NCBI RefSeq assembly: GCF_025244825.1
Contig: NZ_CP104263.1
Location: 2,542,001 to 2,606,000 of the forward strand
Direction: 5' to 3'
DNA: 64,000 nt
Source of the DNA: Arthrobacter jinronghuae
GTDB taxonomy: Bacteria > Actinomycetota > Actinomycetes > Actinomycetales > Micrococcaceae
In this document: positions 32,129-46,284 of the stretch, piece after piece
Layout of the letters: each line of letters begins with the position of its first letter
Position numbering within the stretch: position 1 is the first letter of the stretch
Notes under the pieces: model-generated
What the model was told of the DNA's origin: nothing
Seen by the model: only the letters and a program-made list of their open reading frames with translations
The model's database searches: none
Translations under genes and position numbers: made by a program

Positions 32129-32889
32129 TCAGCCACCCCGCTCCCGCTGCGGCCCGGCACATCCGGCACGGCTGATCCGCCGTCCGGTTCCCGTGCCGCT
32201 TCGGGTTCGCCCAGGTAGATGCCCTCATGCTCGTCGCGGATGATCTTGCCGTTGCGCAGTTCCACCACGCGCTTGCGCATCGCGTTGACGATGTCGTCGT
32301 CGTGCGTAGCCATCACCACCGTGGTGCCGTTCTGGTTCACCCGGTCCAACACCTTCATAATGCCCAGCGACGTGGTGGGGTCCAGGTTTCCGGTGGGTTC
32401 GTCGGCGAGCAAAATGCCCGGCTTGTTGACGATGGCCCTCGCGATAGCGACGCGCTGCTGCTCGCCGCCTGAGAGTTCGTGGGGCATGCGGTTGTCCTTG
32501 CCCTCCAGCCCTACGGTCTTGAGGACTTCGGGCACCGAGTCACGGATAACGGCACGGCTGCGGCCGATCACCTGCATGGCAAAGGCAACGTTCGCAAAGA
32601 CCGTCTTGTTGGGCAGCAGGCGGAAATCCTGGAAGACCACGCCTATCCCCCGGCGCAGCCGGGGCACCCGCCAGCTCGGGATCTTTGCCACGTTGGCGCC
32701 GGCCACGTAGACCGTGCCCTTGGTGGCGTGCTCCTCTTTCATGATCAGCCGGATAAACGTCGATTTGCCGGAGCCGGAAGCGCCCACGAGGAACACGAAC
32801 TCGCCGCGGTCCACGTCGAGGCTGACCGAGTTGAGCGCAGGCCGGGAGTTCCGGTCATACAGCTTGGTGACATTGTCGAAAGTGATCAT
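32125..32889 (-). CDS. ftsE: Cell division ATP-binding protein FtsE
   Basis: A 254-residue ABC ATPase: Walker [13 protein letters not shown], signature [13 protein letters not shown], Walker [16 protein letters not shown]-loop MATHDDDIV. The C-terminal 28 residues ([12 protein letters not shown] onward) form a Pro/Gly/Ser-rich tail that typical FtsE lacks. It drives conformational change of FtsX. It heads the ftsE-ftsX-M23-smpB unit. Confidence 0.96.
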
Positions 32890-33036
32890 CGCTACTTAGT
32901 GCCCATGAAGCGGCCGGAGACACGGGCCTTGGTTCGGGGTATGGGCACCGGCCTCTCGACTATAGCCAGCTTCCGACGCAGTGAGCCACAACCTAACAGC
33001 GCGTGTCGGACTGCACACCGCGTCCACAGGGTGAAG

Positions 33037-35238
33037 ATGCGGTACAGTCCTGCGGTGCCCACAGATTCCGCCGGACTGTCCCCCGATGCCGTCGCCCTTG
33101 CGGATATTCGGCGTTCCCCGCGTACATCGACGGATACCCGCGCGTCCCGCCGCGGACGCCGGGTCCTTCGCAGCAGCGGCACCCACCCCGGTTTCCGCCG
33201 CGACGTCCAAGGGCTGCGGGCCCTCGCCGTCGTACTGGTGCTTCTTTACCATGTCTGGCCTGAGGCACTGCCGGGGGGCTTTATCGGCGTGGACGTTTTC
33301 TTTGTTATTTCCGGCTACCTGATTGTCGGTTCCCTGGTGCGGGAACTGCGCTCCACGTCCACTATCGCGTTGGCGCCCTTTTACGCCCGGCGGATCCGCC
33401 GGCTACTTCCCGCAGCTGCAACGGTTGTGCTCTCGACCCTGGGCGCAACAGTGCTGCTCTTCCCGGAGGGGCGCTGGCAGGGCGTTGGCCGGGATGCCGC
33501 GGCCGCCAGCTTGAATGTCCAAAACTGGAACCAGGCCTTCAGCACCACCAGCTACGCGGGTGCGACAGCCGCTGTATCTCCGCTGCAGCATTACTGGTCC
33601 CTCTCTGTGGAGGAACAGTTCTATCTTGTGGTTCCCGTGCTCCTGCTCGGCGCTGCTGCCGCGGTCCGTGCCATGGGGCTCCGCGCCGGCATACCTGCTG
33701 CCGCACTGGCAGTCATCTGCGGTATCTCCGTGTTGTCCTTCATCCACTCGGTCCAGTTCTCGATGTCGGCCCCCGATCTTGCCTATTTCTTTACCACTAC
33801 CCGAATCTGGGAACTCGGTCTGGGCGGGATCCTGGCCCTCGCGACCGCGGGACGAAGCGTGCAGCTGCGCCTATCCATCGCCAGCGGGTGGGCCGGGATT
33901 GTACTGATCAGCGCGGGAGCCATCGGTCTCTCCACCGCGATGCCTTTTCCCGGCTGGGTGGCACTCGTTCCCACGGCTGGAGCTGCGCTGTGCATCCTTG
34001 CAGGCAGGGCCGCTGATGCTGCCGTACCGTGGATTTCGTCCGTCTGGTGGCAGTCCCTTCGCCCGGTCACCTATCTAGGCGACATCTCCTACTCCCTGTA
34101 TCTGTGGCATTGGCCGGTCACCGTCTTCACCGTCCATATTCTCGGGCACGGCCCTGACCTGGTTGCCGGTGCCGCCATCATCTCCACAAGCGTTCTTCTG
34201 GCCGCACTGTCCACCCGGTTTATCGAGAAGCCGTTCCGCCGGTTCCAGGGGAAAGCCGGCTCCGTGGGCCGCCACGGCGCTGAGAGGGTGACGCACCGGC
34301 CCGTGTATGCACTGGCAGCGGTCCTGATCGCAGTTCCGGTAGCAGTTGCCGCCGTCCCGTATGGGGTTGTCCAGCAGAAAATCAACAACCTGACCAAAGA
34401 GTACGATTCCGGTTCCTACCCAGGCGCCACAGCGTTCGATTCCAGCAACCCCGCAGCAGTGCCGGAAGGCCAGCCGCTGCGCCCGGCACCTGCGGCGGCC
34501 ATGGCCGACATGCCATCGCTGGATGAGGCCTGCACTGTCTACGATCCGGCGGAAACACCCTACGCCGAGTGTATGTTCGGTGACCCCGGCGGAGCCAAAG
34601 CAATAGTCCTGGTAGGGGATTCCCATGCTGCCCAATTCATGGCTCCCCTCGACGCCATTGCCCGGGACGGCGGGTACCGGCTTTACGTCCTCACCCGCAA
34701 CGGATGCCCGTTCAATGCCGAGCCGTTGCACAGCGACACCTATACCTACGCTCTCTGCCCTTCCCAGAACCTTGAGACCGTGAAGGACATCCTCGAGATC
34801 GAACCCGAACTCGTAGTCACGTCGGCCATGCGGCCGGCCAGCTACGATCATGCGCTTGGCTGGACCTGGGATTCCCCGCGCAGTGCCGTGGACGGTTATC
34901 TGGAGGTGTTGGAGCCGCTGGAGCAGGCCGGCATCCACATCGGCGTCATCGCAGACATCCCCTATCCGACGTTTAGCGTCCCCGACTGTGTGCTGGAAAA
35001 AGACAGCATCGACGACTGCAATGTTCAGCGCCCCGACGCAATCGGAGCGACCGACCCCCTGGTCGAGGCAGCCATGCGGCTGAACAACAGCCGGCAGGTG
35101 GACCTGACGGACTATTTCTGCGATGACCAGCGATGCCCTGCCGTAGTCGGCAATGTCCTGGCCTACCGGGACAACCACATCACCAATACCTTCGCCCGGA
35201 CCCTGGTCCTGCCGCTGCGGAAAGGGCTCGGCTTCTAG
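33037..35238 (+). CDS. Acyltransferase 3 / SGNH-domain O-acetyltransferase
   Basis: A 733-residue envelope acetyltransferase. ATG at 33037 is preceded by AGGGTG; GTG codons at 33031 and 33055 are alternatives. After a basic cytoplasmic N-terminus comes the acyltransferase-3 domain (FRRDVQGLRALAVVLVLLYH, GFIGVDVFFVISGY, WSLSVEEQFYLVVP) with about ten membrane helices, then an extracytoplasmic SGNH domain (about 480-733) with VLVGDSHAAQFM and the late DxxH-like region near DNHITN. Such proteins transfer acetyl groups to wall polysaccharide. It lies in opposite orientation between ftsE and prfB. Confidence 0.92.
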   Translation: MRYSPAVPTDSAGLSPDAVALADIRRSPRTSTDTRASRRGRRVLRSSGTHPGFRRDVQGLRALAVVLVLLYHVWPEALPGGFIGVDVFFVISGYLIVGSLVRELRSTSTIALAPFYARRIRRLLPAAATVVLSTLGATVLLFPEGRWQGVGRDAAAASLNVQNWNQAFSTTSYAGATAAVSPLQHYWSLSVEEQFYLVVPVLLLGAAAAVRAMGLRAGIPAAALAVICGISVLSFIHSVQFSMSAPDLAYFFTTTRIWELGLGGILALATAGRSVQLRLSIASGWAGIVLISAGAIGLSTAMPFPGWVALVPTAGAALCILAGRAADAAVPWISSVWWQSLRPVTYLGDISYSLYLWHWPVTVFTVHILGHGPDLVAGAAIISTSVLLAALSTRFIEKPFRRFQGKAGSVGRHGAERVTHRPVYALAAVLIAVPVAVAAVPYGVVQQKINNLTKEYDSGSYPGATAFDSSNPAAVPEGQPLRPAPAAAMADMPSLDEACTVYDPAETPYAECMFGDPGGAKAIVLVGDSHAAQFMAPLDAIARDGGYRLYVLTRNGCPFNAEPLHSDTYTYALCPSQNLETVKDILEIEPELVVTSAMRPASYDHALGWTWDSPRSAVDGYLEVLEPLEQAGIHIGVIADIPYPTFSVPDCVLEKDSIDDCNVQRPDAIGATDPLVEAAMRLNNSRQVDLTDYFCDDQRCPAVVGNVLAYRDNHITNTFARTLVLPLRKGLGF

Positions 35239-36487: not shown

Positions 36488-36571
36488 GGCGGATGCGCAC
36501 GGCGGTGTCCGTGGGCGGCGTTAGATTAAGGGAACGGATATGGAATGTACGCCCTTTCGAAGGAGCCTCTC

Positions 36572-36856
36572 TTGACCCATCCCGAGCGCGGACGCATGTA
36601 CACCCTGGACGAACTCAACGACCTTGCCGAGCAGGGCGACCCCTGGGCCATGGGGAAAGTGGACGAGTGGGAGCAGCACTTCTCCAACGAGTACGTGGGC
36701 AACATGAAAGACAGGTGCCCCGACGGCGACTGCGAACAGTTCGGCGAGCCGGTGACCATTTGCTACGGCGAGGACGGCCGGATCCTGGACGTGGACCACG
36801 GCGGCTGGGGCCACGGTCCGGTCCGTGAGGCGCAGGAGCAGCGGAAGGCTTCGTAG
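36572..36856 (+). CDS. Hypothetical protein, acidic, Trp/Gly-rich C-terminus
   Basis: A 94-residue soluble acidic protein of unknown function. TTG at 36572 is chosen because AAGGAG precedes it by 8 nt; ATG at 36545 would add nine residues but lies upstream of that site. Segments: RGRMYTLDELNDLAEQGDPW, then CPDGDCEQFGEP with two cysteines, and DVDHGGWGHGP. The 3' end of this gene is duplicated 1.57 kb downstream (38389-38426), where the body of the gene is missing. Confidence 0.75.
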   Translation: MTHPERGRMYTLDELNDLAEQGDPWAMGKVDEWEQHFSNEYVGNMKDRCPDGDCEQFGEPVTICYGEDGRILDVDHGGWGHGPVREAQEQRKAS

Positions 36857-36886
36857 GATTTCACTGCAGCAGCCGGGCCCGCACCT
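36818..36886. repeat. 69-bp duplicated segment, copy 1
   Basis: Matches 38389-38457 without gaps at 64 of 69 positions by hand comparison. It spans the last 13 codons of the hypothetical gene and, reading the minus strand, the 3' end of a TadG-like gene. Confidence 0.9.
36861..36886 (-). pseudogene. Remnant of the last Tad-locus gene (C-terminal codons only)
   Basis: On the minus strand these bases read RARLLQ-stop, the same C-terminus as the TadG-like gene at 38432-38905. Similarity ends abruptly at about 36886, next to the end of the small LAATG gene. This is what remains of a second copy. Confidence 0.7.
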
Positions 36887-37040
36887 AGGGCCGGTTGGAC
36901 GAGTTCCTCTTCAGCAGCGTGAACAGACCTACTGCAACGAATATCCCGCCTAGGACAAACAGGACCATCGATCCTATCTCCAACCCGGTTGCGGCGAGCC
37001 CGGCAACGAGACCGGAAGCCAGACTTACTCCCAGCATCAT
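36885..37040 (-). CDS. 51-residue membrane protein with LAATG sorting-signal-like sequence
   Basis: A short protein starting in an ATGA overlap with the glycosyltransferase stop codon. After MMLGVSLASGLVAG comes LAATG, then a hydrophobic stretch (about 21-42) and a basic end LLKRNSSNRP. That order (LAxTG, hydrophobic segment, positive tail) is the layout of class E sortase signals of high-GC Gram-positive bacteria, but nothing precedes it that could be a surface domain or a classical signal peptide. It could be the captured tail of a surface protein, or a coupled membrane micropeptide. Function unknown. Confidence 0.6.
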   Translation of the reverse strand: MMLGVSLASGLVAGLAATGLEIGSMVLFVLGGIFVAVGLFTLLKRNSSNRP

Positions 37041-38161
37041 CCCACCCCCTCTGCTTTGTACTGCGCAGCCCACAAGTCACGATCTTTGCGGGTGATCTTT
37101 TTGCGGATGATCTCTCCCCAGGAAGCGAGAATCCATCCGCCGCGTACGCAGGCCAGGAGCTCAATAGGGACTATAAAAACGACGAGAAGGATGTCCCACT
37201 TGTCCTTATACGGGACGCGAACGGCAGTCTTGAGGTTGATGGCTACGAACAGTAAGGGCACCAGCAGTCCCCACCAAGCTAATGTCAAGGAATCCAGGTA
37301 TAGCGCCAGGGAAATTACCATCACCCAGAGCGCCCGGATTGTGGGTCCGAGCAGATTGAGCATCTGGCTAAGCCAGTCCCTTATGGTCAGGCGGTTGACT
37401 CCGAAGCGAAGCAGATCCTGAAGGGTACCTGCCTGCCACTTCATGCGCTGCCCCCACAGGGACTTCAGGTTCTTCATCCCGTCCGTATATGCCCTGATGG
37501 TGGTGGATACATAGGTCTTGTATCCCGCTTCCCGAAGTCGGTAGGTCAGCTCGTAGTCCTCCACAGCACTTTCGTACGACCACGGCCCTTCCCTGTCGTC
37601 CCTGGCGGCAATCTCCCTCAGGGCCGTACCGGAGAACGCAGACCCGGCGCCTGCCAGGACATTGGTCCACCCCTGGTTCAGCCCCTGTTGGATGTTGTAG
37701 GCGTATTCGGATTTCTGCAGTCTGCACCACAAACCGGGCTGCCGGATGGTGAATTTGGAAGTCGATCCCCCGAAGAGACGCTTCCATGATTCCTTCTCCC
37801 AGTCTTCAATGGCATTGGGGACAAGCACAGTGTCTGCGTCCATGGACACCACAAGATCGGAGTCACGGCCATACAAATTCCACCCCCTGTTCATGGCCTC
37901 GGACTTGCGGTGTTTTAGGCGGGGCAGGTCCATGACGATTACGGGGTACTTCTTTGCTACGTCCACCGTGTGATCAGTGCATCCATTGGCGATGATGACG
38001 ATCCGGTCCGGCAGCCGGGTCTGCGCGAGAAGAGACTCAATGGTTTGCCCTATGGTTTCCTCCTCGTTGTGTGCCGGTACTAGTACTGTGATATCGATTT
38101 TCTCCCCGCGCACGCGGATCAGCTCCCGGGCCTCGCCCTCGACTACCCCTACTGCATCCAC
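37037..38161 (-). CDS. Processive-type family 2 glycosyltransferase with TadA-derived N-terminus
   Basis: A 374-residue membrane glycosyltransferase. The GT-A domain shows ITVLVPAHNEEETIG, MDADTVL (metal site), AVEDYELTYRLREAG (general base region) and GQRMKWQAG, equivalent to the QxxRW motif of processive synthases such as those making PNAG or hyaluronan. Three to four C-terminal membrane segments follow. GTG start at 38161. The first 19 residues (MDAVGVVEGEARELIRVRG) match the start of the TadA ATPase at 14 of 19 positions and do not belong to the glycosyltransferase fold. Two sampled lines (37201-37320) have 63 of 120 G+C, clearly lower than the surroundings, suggesting transfer. Confidence 0.88.
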   Translation of the reverse strand: MDAVGVVEGEARELIRVRGEKIDITVLVPAHNEEETIGQTIESLLAQTRLPDRIVIIANGCTDHTVDVAKKYPVIVMDLPRLKHRKSEAMNRGWNLYGRDSDLVVSMDADTVLVPNAIEDWEKESWKRLFGGSTSKFTIRQPGLWCRLQKSEYAYNIQQGLNQGWTNVLAGAGSAFSGTALREIAARDDREGPWSYESAVEDYELTYRLREAGYKTYVSTTIRAYTDGMKNLKSLWGQRMKWQAGTLQDLLRFGVNRLTIRDWLSQMLNLLGPTIRALWVMVISLALYLDSLTLAWWGLLVPLLFVAINLKTAVRVPYKDKWDILLVVFIVPIELLACVRGGWILASWGEIIRKKITRKDRDLWAAQYKAEGVG

Positions 38162-38165
38162 CGGC
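38105..38165. repeat. 61-bp segment shared with the start of tadA, copy at the glycosyltransferase
   Basis: Ungapped match to 43085-43145 at 49 of 61 positions by hand comparison. It covers the start codon and first codons of both genes. Confidence 0.85.
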
Positions 38166-38388
38166 GGTCCTTCGTGTAGGCACGGGACTGACCGGACATG
38201 TCGTCTCCCCCGCGCGAATGGTGCAGTCGGTTTATGGCTGCCGCGTCAGATTAGGGTCGCGGGAGGGTGTTGACGAGAGTAAATACGCGCGCCAGTGGAA
38301 AGTCGGGTAGCGCTCCCGCGGTGCCGGATGCGGGGACTCAGTAGTCAGCGGCGCCCGCCCGGGTAAGGGAACGGACTGGAGGCACTGG

Positions 38389-38426
38389 CCGGTCCGCGAG
38401 GCGCAGGAGCAGCGGAAGGCTTCGTA
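38389..38426 (+). pseudogene. Remnant of a second copy of the hypothetical gene (3' end only)
   Basis: Encodes the C-terminus PVREAQEQRKAS-stop, as in the gene at 36572-36856. Just before it, TAAGGGAACGGA (38364-38375) repeats the leader found upstream of the intact gene (near 36527), so the body of the gene is deleted between the two. Confidence 0.7.
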
Positions 38427-38457
38427 GCTTTTTACTGCAGCAGCCGGGCCCGCGCCT
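38389..38457. repeat. 69-bp duplicated segment, copy 2
   Basis: Partner of 36818-36886 (64 of 69 identical). Here the minus-strand part is inside the intact TadG-like gene. Confidence 0.9.
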
Positions 38458-38905
38458 CACTCACCGCGGTGACGGGGATTCCGTCCGGCACCAGGAAATT
38501 CACGATCGGCGGATGGACCCGCGCCGCCAGCACCACACGTGCCGTCCGGCCGTCCGCCGTGCCGGTCTCTTCCGTTACCGCAAGCTCCGTGAACCGTTCC
38601 TCCGCACCCGTTTCGGCAAGATAACTGCGGGCGGCGCGGCGGACGGCGTCGGCTTCCAGCACCGCCGCCGGACCCGCCCCTGCGGCGGCCTCACCCAGCG
38701 AGAACGTGTCGGCCGCGGCCACCGCTGCACCGTCAGCGGCTGAGAGCAGCTTCTTCTGCCCGAGATAGACGGACGACGCCGCCATCACCACTGTGACGGT
38801 CAGCAGCGCCAGCACGCAGTACCCGATGATGAGTACCCCGACCTGCCCCCGCTCCCCGTCATCCCGCTGCCCGACCGGCGGTCCTTTCCGTAACCCCCGG
38901 CTCAT
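38432..38905 (-). CDS. TadE/TadG-like pseudopilin, last gene of the Tad operon
   Basis: A 157-residue protein: hydrophilic N-terminus ending ERGQVGVLIIGY, one long membrane helix (about 22-42), then an extracytoplasmic part with QKKLLSAADGAAVAAADTF, typical of TadG-like proteins with an N-terminal helix. ATG at 38905 overlaps the previous stop by 4 nt. It probably acts as minor pilin-like component of the Flp pilus. Its 3' end is duplicated at 36861-36886. Confidence 0.8.
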   Translation of the reverse strand: MSRGLRKGPPVGQRDDGERGQVGVLIIGYCVLALLTVTVVMAASSVYLGQKKLLSAADGAAVAAADTFSLGEAAAGAGPAAVLEADAVRRAARSYLAETGAEERFTELAVTEETGTADGRTARVVLAARVHPPIVNFLVPDGIPVTAVSEARARLLQ

Positions 38906-39357
38906 CCGAAGCGCTCCACAACCTGCGTGGACTGGGAATCCACCACTACCGGGGACCCGTCGGTCCACGGAAGCCCGGGAAGCGGCACGGCAAACCGGAC
39001 GCTGACAGTGACGGTCGACCCGGGCGCCAGACATACCTCGGAGCAGCTGATGTCCATCAGCATGCCGTCGGCCTGCAGCCCGAAGTCGCTCAGCGCGAGT
39101 TCCGCCGCATCCGCCGCCTGCTGTTCACCAACCACAGTGTCGGGTGCTGCGGCATAGACCTTGGCGGCGGCGTCGGCCGCACCGACCACCGCGAAGGACG
39201 CCCCCTGGATCTGGCCAACGGTAACCACCAGATACACCACAGGCACCAGCAGGATCAGACCCAGGAAAATGAACTCGACGACGGCGCTGCCGCCTTCATC
39301 CGGTACCTGCCGGGGCTTCCCCGCTTGCCGGGTTCCTCCCTCACCGCCTCGCCGCAT
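38902..39357 (-). CDS. TadE-family pilus protein
   Basis: A 151-residue TadE-like protein with the conserved start of the membrane segment, GGSAVVEFIFLGLILLVPVV, including the Glu typical of pseudopilins processed with Flp. An extracytoplasmic domain with two cysteines (DISCSEVCLAPG) follows. ATG at 39357 has GAGG upstream; the frame continues to a GTG at 39381. It overlaps the upstream TadE gene by 17 nt and the next gene by 4 nt. Confidence 0.82.
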   Translation of the reverse strand: MRRGGEGGTRQAGKPRQVPDEGGSAVVEFIFLGLILLVPVVYLVVTVGQIQGASFAVVGAADAAAKVYAAAPDTVVGEQQAADAAELALSDFGLQADGMLMDISCSEVCLAPGSTVTVSVRFAVPLPGLPWTDGSPVVVDSQSTQVVERFG

Positions 39358-39673
39358 GCCCCTTGACCTCGATTCCGTCACCGGGCCCGATGAAACCGAT
39401 GACCGGCAGCGGCGCCCGCACCGTGATCTCCAACAGGCGTGCGCCGTCCACGGTCTGCTCTGAGTAGCTCACGTCCCCGGCATATTCCTCGCCGAGTGAG
39501 TTGCCGATTACGGCGGCCGTGCGCGCCACGCCGTCCGCCGGGGTGCGGTCTGCCAGGGTGCCGTAGCGCGCGCCCGTGGCTGCGGCGTCGATCAGGGTGT
39601 TGCGAACGTGCAGCACCAGCGCCAACTGCACCACAGCCATAAACACCAGGCTCACCAGCGCTCCCACCATCAC
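39341..39673 (-). CDS. TadE-family pilus protein, probably frameshifted at its 5' end
   Basis: 110 residues from the only available in-frame start (GTG at 39673), beginning MMVGALVSLVFMAVVQLALV. The conserved TadE lead ERERGSAVVDF is encoded just upstream in the same frame, but no ATG, GTG, TTG or CTG exists between it and the preceding in-frame stop. An ATG at 39749 with AGGG upstream is one base out of frame. Removing one base from the GGG run at 39707-39709 would join them. So this is either a frameshifted gene, a sequence error, or an unusual start. Confidence 0.7.
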   Translation of the reverse strand: MMVGALVSLVFMAVVQLALVLHVRNTLIDAAATGARYGTLADRTPADGVARTAAVIGNSLGEEYAGDVSYSEQTVDGARLLEITVRAPLPVIGFIGPGDGIEVKGHAARR

Positions 39674-39771
39674 GAAGTCGACGACGGCGGACCCCCGTTC
39701 CCGTTCGGGACCGCGGCCGGCAGCACCGGACCGGCACGTCCGGCCGCATCCCCGGCGACCCTGCCACCGGT

Positions 39772-40044
39772 TTATGGCTGCACCTGTTCTATTGCGGATT
39801 CAAACAGCCGCTCGAGGGCCGGCTGCACCAGGAGCAGCAGTCCGGCCACGAGGATCGCGGACATGAGGGTAATCATCACCCACCCGGGTACATCTCCACG
39901 CTCCGGATCCCTTGGGTGCGCTGCCGCCTGGAACTGCCGCACCAGCCGAAAGCACCATCCCGCCACCACGGCGAGCGCTGCTTTCCATCTTCGGCCCGCG
40001 GTCCGTGTGCCGTCCCCGCGCCTGTTCGCCTTACTACTGGTCAT
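39772..40044 (-). CDS. Small membrane protein, candidate Flp-type pilin
   Basis: A 90-residue protein with a basic N-terminus and one membrane segment after ERGDVPGWVMITLMSAILVA. Position between tadC and tadE genes, size and single helix fit the Flp prepilin, with possible cleavage after ERG. However, the Glu at +5 and the Tyr normally found in Flp pilins are absent, so the assignment is tentative. No terminator separates it from its neighbours. Confidence 0.6.
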   Translation of the reverse strand: MTSSKANRRGDGTRTAGRRWKAALAVVAGWCFRLVRQFQAAAHPRDPERGDVPGWVMITLMSAILVAGLLLLVQPALERLFESAIEQVQP

Positions 40045-40125
40045 CTCATCTCCATCCCCTCGACATGCTTCCCCTTTGCTTTGCTCCCGGTTTCACTGGT
40101 ACTCCTCCTGGTTCCTTCTCCTGCC

Positions 40126-41064
40126 TCACAGCCCCAACCGCAGCAGTGCCAGGCCCGGGAACACCGCAAACAGCACGGTCAACGGGAGGATTCCAAAAAC
40201 CACGGGCACCATCATGGCTATTTCCTTTTTGCCTGCGGTCTCCATCAGGTCCCGCTTCGCACCGTCCCGTACGTCCTGCGCCTGTGCACGCATAACATCC
40301 GCCAGTGGTGTTCCGCGGTCGACGGCAACGGTGACTCCGTCGACGAACCGGGTCAACGGCGCCAGGCGGATCCGGTCGGAGAACTCCTGCAGGGCTGTGG
40401 TGAGCGGGTGTCCTGAGCGGGTCAGGGCAAGGACACGGTTGAACTCGTCCGCCAATTCACCCTGCGCAGCGGCGGAAACGCGTTCCAGCGCTCCGACGGC
40501 GCTTTCCCCGGCGCTGACGGCTAGCGCCATCATTTCCGCCAGGCTGGGGAATTCCGCCAGGATGCGGCTGTTGCGCCGTTCAATCTGCCGGGTCAGCAGG
40601 TAATCCCGCAGCAGGAATCCCGTAACGGCACAGGCACACGTACCCAAGGCCACCGAGACAAGTCCCATGCGACCGCTGCCGATGAGAAGGGCGCCCACTG
40701 CTCCCCCGGCCAGGAACCCGGAACCGGCAAACAAGACCTGCTCTGCCCGGTAATCCGAAACGGACTTGTTCCCGCCGGCCTGCTGCAGCCGCAGCCCGAG
40801 GGCCCGGTTGGCCGGAGAGAACCGGGCCATCCGGCGTACGGCGTCGTGGAGCAACGGACGCAGGATCCGCTCCAGCGGGCCGAAAGGCGTGATGTCCGGG
40901 GCGGATAGCAGGAGCCCCGACGCGGGGCGCACCGAACGCAGCTGTGGTTCCACCCGAGCAGCGAATGTACTCTGCCGCAGCAGCGGCAGCCGGTGCAGGA
41001 CCAGCAGCAGTCCAGTGCCCATCAGGGCTCCAGCCAGTACCGCTGCGGCTATCCCGGGCGTCAC
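40126..41064 (-). CDS. tadC: Tad secretion membrane protein TadC (type II secretion F domain)
   Basis: A 312-residue inner-membrane platform protein. GTG at 41064 overlaps the tadB stop (GTGA). The T2SSF domain spans about 170-300: FPSLAEMMALAVSAGESAVG, then GVTVAVDRGTPLADVMRAQ and the terminal helices with MMVPVVFGILPLTVLFAVF. Membrane helices flank the domain on both sides. It works with TadB and the TadA ATPase to assemble Flp pili. Confidence 0.88.
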   Translation of the reverse strand: MTPGIAAAVLAGALMGTGLLLVLHRLPLLRQSTFAARVEPQLRSVRPASGLLLSAPDITPFGPLERILRPLLHDAVRRMARFSPANRALGLRLQQAGGNKSVSDYRAEQVLFAGSGFLAGGAVGALLIGSGRMGLVSVALGTCACAVTGFLLRDYLLTRQIERRNSRILAEFPSLAEMMALAVSAGESAVGALERVSAAAQGELADEFNRVLALTRSGHPLTTALQEFSDRIRLAPLTRFVDGVTVAVDRGTPLADVMRAQAQDVRDGAKRDLMETAGKKEIAMMVPVVFGILPLTVLFAVFPGLALLRLGL

Positions 41065-41918
41065 CGCAGTACCCGCACATCTTCGGGCAGGGCGCCTATC
41101 CGCAGCATCAGCCGGTAGCAAAGGACGGAGATGCCGATTCCCGCGACCAGGACCGTCGCGCCGGCAGCGGAGTTGTAGGCTGCAGCTGTCTCCGGGCGCG
41201 CCGCCAGCAGCAGCAACACCGCCCAGGGAGCGGCCACGGCCAGCCTCGCCGCGTTGACGGTCCAGGACTGCCGGGCCAGCAGCTCGCTCCGGGTCCGCGC
41301 ATTCTCGCGCAGAAAACCGGCCAGCGTGCCGAGGAGCCGGCCCAGATCGGTGCCGCCCACCTGGCGGGTTATCCGCAGGGCTTCAATGATGCGGTCCGCC
41401 ACCGGATCCGCCAGGTTGTCCTTGAGCCGGGTCAGCGAATCCTCGAAGTTGCCGCCGGACCGATAGTCGGCGGCAAATGTCCGGAAGTATCCCCGCAGCT
41501 CCTCCGGGCCGTTCCCGGCCAATTGGATGAGTGCCTCCGGAAGCGACAGGCCAGCACGGATTGCGGAGCGCAGGTGGTCGACGACGTCGGGCCACAGTTC
41601 CGCCAGCGAGGCCCTCCTGCGGCGTGCCTGCATCCGCACCAACGCGTAAGGCAGCCCCGCCCCGAAAAGCGCGAAGCAGGCTGCGATGGGTAACGACAGC
41701 GTCAGGATGAAAAACAGGAGAAGGACAAAAACGCCCGTGACAGCACAAGCCGCGAGGAGTCCGGCAGCCCTGACCCGTTCGATGCCGGCCTGCCGCAGCA
41801 GATCGTCCAGGTATCCGGTTCGACGGCGCCGGGACGGGGTATGGGCTGCCGGGATCCAGCAGGACTGCCACAGCAGCAACAATCCCATGCCCAAGGTCAA
41901 CCCCGCTGCGGCGCTCAT
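41061..41918 (-). CDS. tadB: Tad secretion membrane protein TadB (type II secretion F domain)
   Basis: A 285-residue T2SSF-domain membrane protein. ATG at 41918 overlaps the tadA stop by 4 nt. Helices near the N-terminus (GLTLGMGLLLLWQS; AACAVTGVFVLLLFFILTL) precede the conserved WPDVVDHLRSAIRAGLSLPE, and further helices end the protein. Partner of TadC. Confidence 0.88.
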   Translation of the reverse strand: MSAAAGLTLGMGLLLLWQSCWIPAAHTPSRRRRTGYLDDLLRQAGIERVRAAGLLAACAVTGVFVLLLFFILTLSLPIAACFALFGAGLPYALVRMQARRRRASLAELWPDVVDHLRSAIRAGLSLPEALIQLAGNGPEELRGYFRTFAADYRSGGNFEDSLTRLKDNLADPVADRIIEALRITRQVGGTDLGRLLGTLAGFLRENARTRSELLARQSWTVNAARLAVAAPWAVLLLLAARPETAAAYNSAAGATVLVAGIGISVLCYRLMLRIGALPEDVRVLR

Positions 41919-43141
41919 GCTGCCGCCCCGAGCAAGGCGGCGATGTTCACGCCGGCAGAGGCGAACTTGTCGGCCGACGGCATGGCCGAAGCCGTCACGG
42001 CCAGCTTGCCGTCCACCGGACCGAATACCGGGGACGACTCGATGATCCCGCCTTCCACCCGCCGTCCCAGGGCCAGGATTTCGGTGACCTCGCGTCGTCC
42101 TGTACCGGTTCTGGAGCAGTGAACCACCAGGTCGATACAGGAGGCCACCGTTGGAACCACGAAGGCACTGGAAATATTGTTTCCCGCCAGCAGGGGCAGC
42201 GTGCACAGCTTGGTTACCGCGTCCCGTGCACTGTTCGCGTGGATGGTGCACATGCCGGGCAAACCCGCGTTAAGCGCAATCAGCATGTCCAGGCTCTCCG
42301 CTTCACGGACCTCCCCCACGATCAGCCGGTCGGGGCGCATCCGCAATGCTTCCTTCACGAGCCTGCGCAGCGGGATTTCGCCCTGTCCCTCCAGGTTCGG
42401 CTGACGGCACTGCAGCCCCACCACATCCCGCAGTGGGAGCTGGAGTTCGAAGATTTCCTCGACCGTAACCACCCGTTCCCTCGGTCCGATAGACGCAGCG
42501 AGACAGTTGAGCATGGTGGTTTTCCCCGCCTGCGTGGCGCCGGAGACGAGGATGTTCAACCCGGCAGCCACGGCGGCGCCGAGAAAGCGGGCGGCTGCCG
42601 GAGTCAGCGTGCCCAGCTCCACAAGGTGATCAAGGCGGCGGGCACGGGCCACGAACTTGCGGATATTCACTGCCCAGTGCCGCCTGGTCACGTCGGGGAT
42701 GGCAACGTGCAGACGGGACCCGTCCGGTAAGGCCGCGTCTACGAACGGGGAGGAAAGATCAAGCCGCCGGCCGGAGGACTTCAGCATCCGTTCCACCAGA
42801 AGCCGCACCTGCTCGGAAGTCAGCGTCAGGGAAGTCAGCTCGGACCGGCCGTCCCGTGCGAGATAAACCTCGGAGGGCGAGTTGATCCACACTTCTTCGA
42901 CCGTGGGATCATCCAGCAGCGGCTGGAGCGCACCGAAGCCTGCTACGGCGTCGAACACCTGCCGGCGAACGGATTCCGGCCGGCCCAGCGGCGGCAGGGT
43001 CCCCAGCAGGGAGCGCTCGTCGTAGTCGGAGACGGCAGCATCCACGAGCCGCCGAACCTCCGCGGACTGTTCCTGCGGATCCAGCCCGCGCACACGGATG
43101 AGCTCGCGTACCTCGTCTTCGACTATCCGCGCTGCATCCAT
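41915..43141 (-). CDS. tadA: Tad/CpaF-type pilus assembly ATPase
   Basis: A 408-residue secretion ATPase of the VirB11/CpaF group that powers Flp pilus assembly. ATG at 43141 has GGGGGA 6 nt upstream; an ATG two codons earlier abuts that site. Motifs: GALQPLLDDPTVEEVWINSP, Walker A SGATQAGKTTMLN, Asp box VVTVEEIFELQL, Walker B MRPDRLIVGEVREAE and the His box CTIHANSA. First gene of the operon; no tadZ/ssd gene precedes it. Its first 61 bp recur at the start of the glycosyltransferase gene. Confidence 0.94.
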   Translation of the reverse strand: MDAARIVEDEVRELIRVRGLDPQEQSAEVRRLVDAAVSDYDERSLLGTLPPLGRPESVRRQVFDAVAGFGALQPLLDDPTVEEVWINSPSEVYLARDGRSELTSLTLTSEQVRLLVERMLKSSGRRLDLSSPFVDAALPDGSRLHVAIPDVTRRHWAVNIRKFVARARRLDHLVELGTLTPAAARFLGAAVAAGLNILVSGATQAGKTTMLNCLAASIGPRERVVTVEEIFELQLPLRDVVGLQCRQPNLEGQGEIPLRRLVKEALRMRPDRLIVGEVREAESLDMLIALNAGLPGMCTIHANSARDAVTKLCTLPLLAGNNISSAFVVPTVASCIDLVVHCSRTGTGRREVTEILALGRRVEGGIIESSPVFGPVDGKLAVTASAMPSADKFASAGVNIAALLGAAA

Positions 43142-43145
43142 CGGC
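43085..43145. repeat. 61-bp segment shared with the glycosyltransferase start, copy at tadA
   Basis: Partner of 38105-38165 (49 of 61 identical). This is presumably the parental copy because it is in its natural gene. Confidence 0.85.
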
Positions 43146-43470
43146 ATCCCCCGCGATCACCGGGCCATGGCCCGGTACGAGACTGGTTGCGGCCCTCCTC
43201 GGGGCCTACGGGCCACACAGTAAGGGCACGGATGCCAGGGCGCGAGCGTAGTTTCGCTGCCTTGTGGATAACCCGCCCAGGCACGGTTTGGGCACTGCTG
43301 ACCACCCTCTGGGCTACCTGTTCGGCGCCGCTGCGGGGGTATTCGCCCAAAACAGGTACCCGCCGCGGCATGCAGTTTGCGGCGTTGCTCACAGTGGGTG
43401 CTATGGCGGTCGGATAGTCTTCATTCTGACCCGGCACCGTTCGCTGGGCGCGAAACACCCTGGAGATATC
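43142..43470. other. Divergent intergenic region (329 bp) between tadA and the muramidase gene
   Basis: Contains a perfect 18-bp palindrome, ACCGGGCCATGGCCCGGT, at 43159-43176, 18 bp before the tadA start, a position suited to an operator. The plus-strand frame of the muramidase is open through the right part, but its good start is at 43471. I see no RNA gene and no convincing promoter hexamers. Confidence 0.6.
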
Positions 43471-46284
43471 GTGAACAGACAATCACTCTTCCGCTGGCTG
43501 GGGGGTGCGGTTCTGGGCGGTGCTCTGGTGTGCGGTAGCCTGCCGGCTGCCGCCCTGACCACCACGCCCGACCCCGACGGACCGCCTACACCCGCAGCCC
43601 CCGAGATCCCCGCATCCCCCGCAACAGCGGAAGAAACCGGCCCCGCTCCCGTTGAGGCAGACCCTGGCGCTCAGGAAGCCGATCATGAGCAGCCCGGCGC
43701 CGAGGACACCGCTCCGGCCCCCCAGCCGGCCGCGACGGCGGAGAAGAAGGCTGCCGATCCGGCTCAGGATAGGGCCGAGGAATCCGCAGATCCCCCGGCT
43801 GATGCCGTAGGACCACTCGGCGCCCGGATGGGTCAGGGCCTTGAACGCCTGATGGCCACCGGCGATCCGCAGGTGCCCACGGACGAAGAAATCCGCGAGC
43901 GCCGGGACGCGGAAGCCGACCCGGAGACACCGGCGGACGTACCTGATCTGGGTACCCCTGCCAAGCTCGACGAAGCGGAGGCGTCCACCGCCACCCCCGC
44001 GGAAACGCCGCAGGCCTCCCCCGGCAGTTCCAACGGCGCAGCTTCCCTTTCCCCGGCAGCTACGTGGATGCCGGCGGGAATCCAAGGTCTGGACGTCAGC
44101 AGCCACCAGGGCAACGTTGACTGGCAGCGTGCCTGGAACCAGGGCGGCCGTTTCGCCTATGTCAAGGCCACCGAAGGGACGTATTACAAGAATCCGTTCT
44201 ACGGCCAGCAGTACAACGGTTCCAAGAACACCGGCATGCTACGCGGTGCCTACCACTTCGCTATCCCCACCCCCGGGTCCGCCCGGGCGGAGGCCAACTT
44301 CTTCGTGGACAACGGCGGCGGCTGGTCCGCTGACGGCAACACCCTGCCTCCGCTGCTGGATATTGAGTACAACCCCTATCCTGAGCTCGGCAACACCTGC
44401 TACAACATGTCAGCCGGGCAGATGGTTTCCTGGATCCGGGAATTCTCCAACACCATCCAGGCCCGCACCGGCCGTCTCCCGATGATCTACACCACCACCG
44501 ACTGGTGGAGTACCTGCACGGGGAACACTTCAGCGTTTGCGGACCATCCGCTCCACATAGCCAACTACAGCACCACAGGCGCCGGCCCTATGCCGGCAGG
44601 CTGGGGCACTTACAACGTCTGGCAGTACAGCAGCACCGGCCCCTTTGTGGGCGATTCCAATGTCTGGAACGGTTCGACTGCGGACCTGGCCCGGTTCGCG
44701 ATGAGCGGACCGGCACCGGACCGGACCCGCCGGGTTATCAGTCCCGGGGACTTCAACGGTGACCGCAGGCCTGACCTGCTGACCCGGCGCGCGGACGGCA
44801 CCTTGTGGTTCCATGCCGGCACCGGCAACGGATCCTTTGGCGCCCCGCGGCAGATCGGCTCCGGCTGGGAGGTCTACAACAGCCTTGTTGCCGTGGGCGA
44901 CTACGACGGCGACGGCCGCAACGACATCGTCGCGCGCCACGTCAACGGCAGCCTCTACCGCTACTCCGGCACCGGTGTCGTGGATAGCCGGAACGAGGGC
45001 TACCGTCCCGCCGTCCAGATCGGCAACGGCGGATGGGGAGACTTCAACCGCCTGATCGGGGTCGGCGATGCCAACAGTGACGGGCGCACCGATCTGCTGG
45101 CCACCCGCGCGGACGGTTCCTCCCTGCTCTATCAGGGCACCGGCACCGGACAGCATGGCCCGGCCTTTGGAGCAGGCTCCGATTGGTGGCGTTTCTCCGA
45201 ACTGGTGGGAGCACGGGACTTCAACGGTGACGGCCGGGTGGATGTGGTGGCCCGCAGCTCCGACGGCAACCTTTGGCTCCGTGCGGGCAACGGCGGCGGT
45301 TCCTTCGCCCCGGGCTTCTCCATCGGTACCGGTTGGGACATTTACTCCACGGTCCTTGGAGGCAGCGATTTCAACGGCGACGGCAAGGCGGACCTTATCG
45401 GCCAGCGTCAGGACTCCAGCATCTGGTTCTATCCCGGCACAGGTTCCACGCAGGAAGGATATGGTCCGGCCGCACGGGTCGGCACGGTGAACTGGGCTGC
45501 AGACCGGTTGGTGGTCCCCACGGCGGACTTCAACTCCGACGGCACACCGGATCTGTTGACCGTGGCCCGTGACGGATTCTTGTGGTTCCACCCGGGCAAG
45601 TCCTCCGGAGGCTACGGTTCGGCCCGCAACATCGGCTCCGGCTGGCAGATTTACGAGGAAATCACCGCCGTAGGCGATTTCAACGGCGACCGCCGCAATG
45701 ACCTCCTGGCCCGCAAACCGGACGGCAGCCTCTGGTTCTACGCCGGTACCGGCAAGGTCACCTCCGCTGATGAGGGCTATGACAGGGCGGTTAAGGTCGG
45801 CAGCGGCTGGAACACTTATCGGCAGGTGCTCGGGGCCGGTGATCTCAATTCCGACGGCAAACCTGACCTGCTGGCACGCGACGGTGCCGGCGATCTGTGG
45901 CGCTACTACGGGACCGGTTCGGTCTCAGGACGCAACGAGGGCTACAGCAGCGGTACCCGGATCGGCTCAGGCGGGTGGGATGGTTTCACCACCCTCCTCG
46001 GTCCCGGTGATTATGACGGCGACGGCCGTTCAGACGTCCTCGCCACTACAGCGGACGGCCGGTTGCTGCTGTACCGCGGCAGCGGGACCGGCTTGCTCGG
46101 CGTTATGGAAACAGTCGGCACCGGCTGGAACGCGTATTCCCCGCTGCTCGTCACTTCGCCGTCGGCGTCAGGCGCGTTCCGTCTGGGCGGCGTCGCAAAC
46201 GGAGTGCTGTGGGAGTACCGCGGCACCGGGATGGCCGCACAGGGTTACCGGACAGCAACCCCGACCGGTAGCCTTCCGGGCTAG
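43471..46284 (+). CDS. Secreted GH25 muramidase with FG-GAP repeat domain
   Basis: A 937-residue exported protein. GTG at 43471 has GGAG 5 nt upstream and gives a signal peptide ending about LPAAA27. A Pro/Ala/Glu-rich linker (about 30-200) leads to a GH25 lysozyme domain (about 205-410): GLDVSSHQGNVDW, FAYVKATEGTYY and LLDIEYNPY with the catalytic acids. From about 425 to the end, nine clear FG-GAP units carry Ca-binding loops such as GDFNGDRRPD and GDYDGDGRND, interspersed with W-rich strands (LWFHAGTGNG), followed by one degenerate unit. The blade-like repeats probably bind wall or other glycans. Divergent from the Tad operon. Confidence 0.93.
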   Translation: MNRQSLFRWLGGAVLGGALVCGSLPAAALTTTPDPDGPPTPAAPEIPASPATAEETGPAPVEADPGAQEADHEQPGAEDTAPAPQPAATAEKKAADPAQDRAEESADPPADAVGPLGARMGQGLERLMATGDPQVPTDEEIRERRDAEADPETPADVPDLGTPAKLDEAEASTATPAETPQASPGSSNGAASLSPAATWMPAGIQGLDVSSHQGNVDWQRAWNQGGRFAYVKATEGTYYKNPFYGQQYNGSKNTGMLRGAYHFAIPTPGSARAEANFFVDNGGGWSADGNTLPPLLDIEYNPYPELGNTCYNMSAGQMVSWIREFSNTIQARTGRLPMIYTTTDWWSTCTGNTSAFADHPLHIANYSTTGAGPMPAGWGTYNVWQYSSTGPFVGDSNVWNGSTADLARFAMSGPAPDRTRRVISPGDFNGDRRPDLLTRRADGTLWFHAGTGNGSFGAPRQIGSGWEVYNSLVAVGDYDGDGRNDIVARHVNGSLYRYSGTGVVDSRNEGYRPAVQIGNGGWGDFNRLIGVGDANSDGRTDLLATRADGSSLLYQGTGTGQHGPAFGAGSDWWRFSELVGARDFNGDGRVDVVARSSDGNLWLRAGNGGGSFAPGFSIGTGWDIYSTVLGGSDFNGDGKADLIGQRQDSSIWFYPGTGSTQEGYGPAARVGTVNWAADRLVVPTADFNSDGTPDLLTVARDGFLWFHPGKSSGGYGSARNIGSGWQIYEEITAVGDFNGDRRNDLLARKPDGSLWFYAGTGKVTSADEGYDRAVKVGSGWNTYRQVLGAGDLNSDGKPDLLARDGAGDLWRYYGTGSVSGRNEGYSSGTRIGSGGWDGFTTLLGPGDYDGDGRSDVLATTADGRLLLYRGSGTGLLGVMETVGTGWNAYSPLLVTSPSASGAFRLGGVANGVLWEYRGTGMAAQGYRTATPTGSLPG

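Follow-up and report, generated by a model that had tools for sequence, protein, structure and literature searches.

In a 64-kb stretch of the genome of the soil bacterium Arthrobacter jinronghuae (contig NZ_CP104263.1; termed the window), the gene of a membrane glycosyltransferase (GT) begins, in frame, with about 18 codons from the start of a second copy of tadA, and lies together with a small partner gene (smp) beside a native Tad pilus operon. Pieces of the second Tad copy are marked with a prime (tadA', tadC', tadG'). The fusion, the remnants, a graded series of contexts among relatives, the lower divergence of GT than of its neighbors, and purifying selection on GT can all be read directly from the sequences. 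The graded series, the GT tree, the grouping of the tadA' flank and the low divergence of GT together point to the probable acquisition of a Tad copy from elsewhere, which then eroded around the retained GT.

A glycosyltransferase fused to the start of tadA'

Two repeats, both noticed in a first-pass annotation of the window, delimit the cassette. Repeat D3 (38105-38165 against 43085-43145) is identical at 49 of 61 bases (80.3% over 61 nucleotides, nt) and runs in frame: residues 1-19 of GT are the tadA start, followed by the catalytic domain, with the GT N-terminus MDAVGVVEGEARELIRVRG corresponding to the tadA N-terminus MDAARIVEDEVRELIRVRG. That annotation had half-seen this frame agreement, by which the GT N-terminus is the tadA N-terminus. 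Repeat D1 (36818-36886 against 38389-38457), recounted at 64 of 69 bases, extends to 82 nt at 89% identity (36805-36886 against 38376-38457). In searches against the 64-kb window, the partner is the sole significant match of each repeat (108 bits, E 2e-26 for D1; 57.2 bits, E 2e-11 for D3), the next-best matches having E values of 0.03 or weaker. Order-1 Markov surrogates (200 each) reached top scores of 32.8 bits (D1) and 38.3 bits (D3), and 200 random 61-mers searched against the rest of the window gave a top score of 55.4 bits, close to D3, and a next one of 37.4 bits. Both repeats stand clear of most of this background, and chance similarity was rejected. The lower guanine-plus-cytosine content (GC) assigned to the cassette also held: the value is 57.1%, with the window at 64.1% and tadA at 65.6%.

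In the AlphaFold model of GT (mean predicted local distance difference test, pLDDT, of 92), residues 1-14 are disordered; the tadA' leader is thus probably tolerated rather than structural.

Graded contexts of the pair among relatives

The region around the Tad operon was mapped in 28 genus relatives (29 stretches; genomes are designated by G numbers). All 28 possess the hypothetical gene with Tad genes on one side, and in 24 prfB lies on its other side; prfB is not within the fetched stretch in G003, G011, G023 and G024. Large inserts divide the Tad genes of G004, G006 and G023, and no intact second Tad operon was seen in the mapped stretches. GT and smp are present in five relatives (G008, G018, G026, G027 and G009, the last of the same species as the window), with GT identities of 84-99%. 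The cassette is absent from G021, the nearest relative of the window, and from G028, the nearest of G027, both of which have the hypothetical gene and the Tad genes. Wider searches detected GT in 20 of 395 genomes of the family (E <= 1e-50), six of these 20 at the Tad locus, and in four of 396 order genomes with a viral query (E <= 1e-60), the window genome included. A fused form of 98% identity represents 16 sequences in the protein collection.

The carriers display a graded series. In G008, the pair sits between tad4 and tad5 of a single, otherwise complete Tad operon, flanked by a direct repeat of 76 nt at 88% identity, and GT has its own ribosome site. G018 has a complete Tad operon, then smp and a GT that also has its own ribosome site; the open frame ahead of this GT matches the tadA N-terminus, tadA 165-209 and tadC 256-280, and is read as a second operon whose interior was apparently deleted, leaving tadA' and tadC' pieces. 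In G026, about 25 tadA' codons precede a GT with its own ribosome site; the second hypothetical gene is complete, the first is reduced to its 3' end, and an extra tadG end lies between them. In the window, G009 and G027, GT is fused to tadA' and its own ribosome site is lost, the first hypothetical gene is complete, and the second is cut down to its 3' end. G009 retains about 20 codons of the second tadG that are absent from the window.

The features of the window are listed in Table 1; its genome is assembled as one contig of 3.64 Mb. The native operon encodes a TadA ATPase, two TadB/C-type membrane proteins and TadE-like pilins, as expected of a Tad pilus operon, with a score of 268.6 bits against the TadA model TIGR03819, under its cut-off of 373.

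Table 1. Features of the GT-smp cassette and the adjoining Tad locus (positions in the window)
Feature	Position	Strand	Basis
Hypothetical gene, first (complete) copy	36545..36856	+	open reading frame, no family match
Left copy of D1: 3' end of hypothetical gene and last codons of tadG remnant (36861-36886, -)	36805..36886	.	repeat with 38376-38457
smp, 50 residues, single span, LAATG ahead of the span, NRP end	36885..37037	-	
GT2 membrane glycosyltransferase with fused tadA' leader (GTG start, 38161)	37037..38161	-	PF13641, PF00535
tadA' leader codons (D3 = 38105-38165)	38105..38161	-	80% to 43085-43145
tadA' upstream region, presumed expression signals	38162..38346	-	G008 match, tree
Second hypothetical gene, 3' end only (rest deleted)	38376..38427	+	90% over 52 nt to 36805-36856
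Native Tad operon	38432..43147	-	PF00437, two PF00482, PF07811, PF13400
Native operon members: tadA (41915-43147), two T2SSF-type genes, flp-like gene, TadE-like genes, tadG-like gene (38432-39034)		-	

Divergence and phylogeny of GT

Comparison of fourfold sites between the window and G027 revealed differences at 25 of 182 sites in GT (0.14) and at 0.41-0.46 of the sites in the Tad genes (tad4 28/65, tadC 88/190, tadB 71/174 and tadA 110/242). Between the window and G026, the values are 34/169 (0.20) for GT, 131/236 (0.56) for tadA and 82/205 (0.40) for prfB. The ratio of nonsynonymous to synonymous rates (dN/dS) of GT is 0.12-0.17 in four pairs, indicative of purifying selection.

The GT tree joins the five Arthrobacter copies with six metagenomic proteins in a clade supported at 100/100, within which G018, G026, and the window with G027 split off successively (98/96, 100/97 and 100/91). 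The G008 copy groups with metagenomic proteins, outside G018, G026 and the window with G027. This branching order matches the graded series of contexts. The Arthrobacter clade lies within a 33-row group (100/99) that also holds phage AWGoat, a viral contig and metagenomic proteins; the Pseudarthrobacter copies are placed elsewhere.

Origin of the second Tad copy

The first-pass annotation had proposed a tandem duplication of the hypothetical gene plus Tad operon, followed by replacement of one interior by the cassette. The second unit stands: its remnants lie in the window, and more of it is kept in G018, G009 and G026. A purely local duplication does not agree with the tree of tadA starts and upstream regions (32 rows, resting on 57 coding and 230 upstream bases), in which G008 (92/79) and then G016 (90/81) join the five tadA' sequences, with a central branch (90/89) separating them from the window's own tadA. 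With this moderate support, a local origin of tadA' is disfavored. Segment 38106-38346 shares 77% identity (243 nt) with the start of tadA and the region upstream of it in G008, and the G018 remnant is 80% identical to G008 over 506 nt, compared to 76% over 298 nt to its own tadA. In a side observation, the Tad operon of G016 looks mosaic, with tadA-tadC like the G008 group and tad4-tadG like the window group.

Local duplication of the hypothetical gene and Tad operon, with an incoming GT cassette then replacing one interior, would explain why pieces from either outer end of a second unit are still present, as well as the reciprocal loss of the two hypothetical genes in G026 and the window. 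It also draws on the D1 copies, which most resemble the window's own lineage, with 95% (left, 76 nt) and 89% (right, 89 nt) identity to G021, although extending the comparison lowers the identity of the right copy to 81%, to G021 as well as to the left copy. We nevertheless consider it unlikely, given that tadA' and its upstream region are of the G008/G016 type and that G008 has the pair within a complete operon. A single crossover at the hypothetical-gene/tadG junction would import a foreign unit and leave the observed D1 pattern. The replacement step fares no better: as the G008 pair sits in an otherwise complete operon with its own ribosome site, entry followed by deletion of the surroundings fits better, in which case the pair would have entered a working operon and the deletions around it would have come later.

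Overall architecture of GT

GT scores above the cut-off for both PF13641 and PF00535. Its GT-A domain has the DxD motif and the acidic ED pair of the synthase class, with D108, D110, E201 and D202 invariant in 65 sequences. QxxRW is the motif of processive GT2 membrane polysaccharide synthases; the window GT has QRMKW instead, in which Q238 and W242 are invariant and K241 nearly so in the 65 sequences, and because of this departure GT was not filed in the synthase class. The model predicts helices at 232-253, 260-288, 296-314 and 330-357, in agreement with the interface helix and subsequent C-terminal membrane helices of the synthase class.

Fold search ranked the Chlorella virus hyaluronan synthase (PDB 7sp7) first, with a template-modeling (TM) score of 0.69 by query, followed by chitin and cellulose synthases and the archaeal mannosyltransferase PcManGT. 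By sequence, the similarity to solved structures is weak (best E 2e-10). The Chlorella virus enzyme is likewise virus-encoded; however, it shares only 15% identity with the window GT, which lacks N-terminal membrane helices and has QRMKW rather than QxxRW. Among NCBIfam models, the best is that of the poly-GlcNAc synthase PgaC/IcaA (TIGR03937), yet the 69 bits of the window GT are far under the equivalog cut-off of 422.3. PgaC/IcaA works with PgaD/IcaD as a synthase with a small membrane partner, which parallels the GT-smp pair. The most likely product of the pair is a glycan at the cell surface, with a surface polysaccharide as the best guess.

The small partner smp

By script, a small single-span gene follows GT in 36 of 37 loci, and one is also present in G018. 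The window smp has no family match at 1e-3. A profile search that scored the 7995 candidates with the best matches yielded at least 111 homologs. Among the matches listed, all 111 have an RP/KP end, a feature that the profile itself favors, 90 start with M(N)YG, and 89 contain L[AP]xTG; the looser [LIVM][AP]x[TS]G is found in 96 and absent in 15. The motif is lost in the smp of G026 and in at least four other Arthrobacter-type homologs.

We favor smp as a membrane subunit of the synthase. It could instead be a stand-alone sortase signal, whose short outer peptide serves as glycan acceptor or anchor and is tied to the wall by sortase. The motif (LAATG in the window), the hydrophobic span and the positive tail resemble an LPXTG/LAXTG sorting signal, several homologs are named 'LPXTG cell wall anchor domain-containing protein' by NCBI, and the genome has three sortase-family matches. 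Unlike known sorting signals, smp consists of nothing but the signal and has no room for a signal peptide; two of three homologs gave 10.9 and 10 bits against the Pfam model Gram_pos_anchor, under its cut-off of 20, and the third gave no match. As the motif is lost in G026 and other homologs and the fixed RP/KP end argues for contact with GT, the sortase reading seems improbable to us.

Phage and chromosomal relatives of the pair

The nearest GT homologs of known setting outside the Tad locus are viral (62-66% identity) and have the same small gene behind them. Annotated actinobacteriophage pairs (AWGoat gp77/gp76, SilentRX gp79/gp78, Cantare gp95/gp96 and Sparcetus gp65/gp66) share the gene order of the window, a GT identity of 47-62%, and a small protein with an MYG start and RP/KP end, but they lack the tadA leader, and the GC content of AWGoat and SilentRX is 67%, compared to 57% in the window. 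No Tad genes were found in the four annotated phage stretches. AWGoat is called lytic, without an integrase (PMC11783173). Pseudarthrobacter and relatives carry a chromosomal locus with a GT of 52-56% identity and a small partner; it differs in an adjoining secreted GH26 hydrolase (20 of 26 chromosomal loci) and in its separate GT-tree clade. A search for the GH26 partner in the 29 genus genomes, run with no positive control, returned an empty answer (0/29). The 125 matching plasmid records are all below 60% identity. The GT-smp pair thus occurs without Tad flanks in phages and Pseudarthrobacter, an arrangement that the first-pass annotation had named as contrary to its scheme; the fused form was seen only with Tad flanks. 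In the literature listings and abstract openings, neither the arrangement at the Tad locus nor the GT-smp pair is described.

Rather than a free polysaccharide, the product could be a modification of the pilus, for example a glycosylation hiding the pilin from pilus-binding phages. In the window and five relatives, the pair is located within or next to a Tad operon, PcManGT ranks high in the fold list, and phages carry the pair, AWGoat being called lytic without an integrase (PMC11783173), as alteration of the surface would predict. Yet the best fold matches are polymer synthases, the GH26 hydrolase adjoins most chromosomal relatives, and the phages carry the pair with no Tad genes in those four stretches. 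We regard pilus modification as possible, if on the unlikely side.

Proposed history of the cassette

In the history that we propose, a GT2 enzyme with a hyaluronan/cellulose-synthase-like fold and a single-span smp of about 50 residues, close kin of actinobacteriophage modules, would have entered a Tad operon in one Arthrobacter lineage of the G008 type. Other species may then have acquired this operon, or a stretch of it, as a second copy beside their own hypothetical-gene/Tad locus, where the pilus genes were presumably lost stepwise and GT-smp kept. In the window lineage, the deletion would also have taken the GT ribosome site and start codon, so that translation of GT now begins where tadA' began and adds a short unstructured leader, with the tadA' promoter presumably driving transcription. 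The cassette would be mobile across species, with recombination in the shared flanks as the probable route. The use of pilus expression signals suggested by the first-pass annotation is borne out insofar as the start of GT coincides with that of tadA' and has the tadA' upstream region ahead of it; use of the promoter itself is presumed. The direction from phage to chromosome, the order of events, promoter use and the product are our inferences. Taken as a whole, from module entry through the second Tad copy and its erosion to the retention of GT-smp and promoter takeover, this history appears reasonably probable.

Several observations weigh against it. Between the window and G027, prfB differs at 50 of 207 fourfold sites (0.24), and the contrast of GT with the Tad genes may be partly due to fast evolution of the latter; the hypothetical gene is also low (6/37, 0.16) and, on these 37 sites only, could have moved too. 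Only 16% of bootstrap trees unite the five tadA' rows, because G008 lies among them, and the G018 piece joins G008 with 80/69. Regarding the direction from phage to chromosome, the nearest non-Arthrobacter rows of the GT tree are metagenomic proteins of unknown setting, and the GC values (55-57% in Arthrobacter, 44.5% in the viral contig and 67% in AWGoat) indicate no donor. Family scans of the ten proteins of 36545-43147 found no recombinase or transposase, and the cassette, with no recombinase or mobile-element gene, does not qualify as an autonomous mobile element. A scan upstream of GT limited to sigma-70-type promoters found none, with none expected in shuffled sequences.

Other insertions at the Tad locus

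Besides the five GT carriers, six of the 28 relatives have other sequences within or next to the Tad operon (G015, G013, G011, G006, G004 and G023), and two of these six inserts contain recognized surface-glycan families. At the hypothetical-gene/tadG junction lie DUF2142 and GtrA in G015 (L059:3068-5337), a polysaccharide pyruvyl transferase in G013 (L066:2379-3569), and a polytopic-looking protein without a family in G011 (L075:704-2038). In G006 (L076:5960-12590), the insert interrupts tadA beside a gene that by eye resembles a large serine recombinase, and larger inserts split the Tad operon of G004 (L073) and G023 (L065:4510-12060). A search for flanking direct repeats of at least 35 nt in relatives with insertions found them in G008 and, as a 36-nt pair of 72% identity, in G013, and none in the stretches of G006, G023, G026 and G015; the idea that insertion always leaves flanking repeats was rejected. 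Within the window, an acyltransferase-3 and an SGNH protein, another type of surface-modifying gene, lie beyond prfB (32479-35238), and a long gene, by eye a GH25 with repeats, adjoins tadA divergently (43264-46284). Relatives of the latter near the locus vary widely in identity and are absent from some stretches.

Implications

The Chlorella virus enzyme coats algae, which offers an analogy for coating infected cells against further phages. GT-smp might be a mobile surface-glycan machine of lytic phages and their hosts, in which smp, as a stand-alone sortase signal, supplies a peptide of about 15 residues that serves GT as primer or acceptor and that sortase ties to the wall, so that the infected cell is coated against phages; Arthrobacter would then have taken the pair into its pilus locus and wired it to a dead pilus promoter as standing protection. 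We put this forward as a long shot. The locus offers a readable cross-species series in which a horizontally moving pair establishes itself in a host operon, persists after the operon has decayed, and takes over the start position and upstream region of that operon. It suggests a surface-glycan module common to phages and hosts, with an unusual LPXTG-like mini-protein, and makes testable the idea that a hyaluronan-synthase-like enzyme allows lytic actinobacteriophages to remodel the surface of their hosts.

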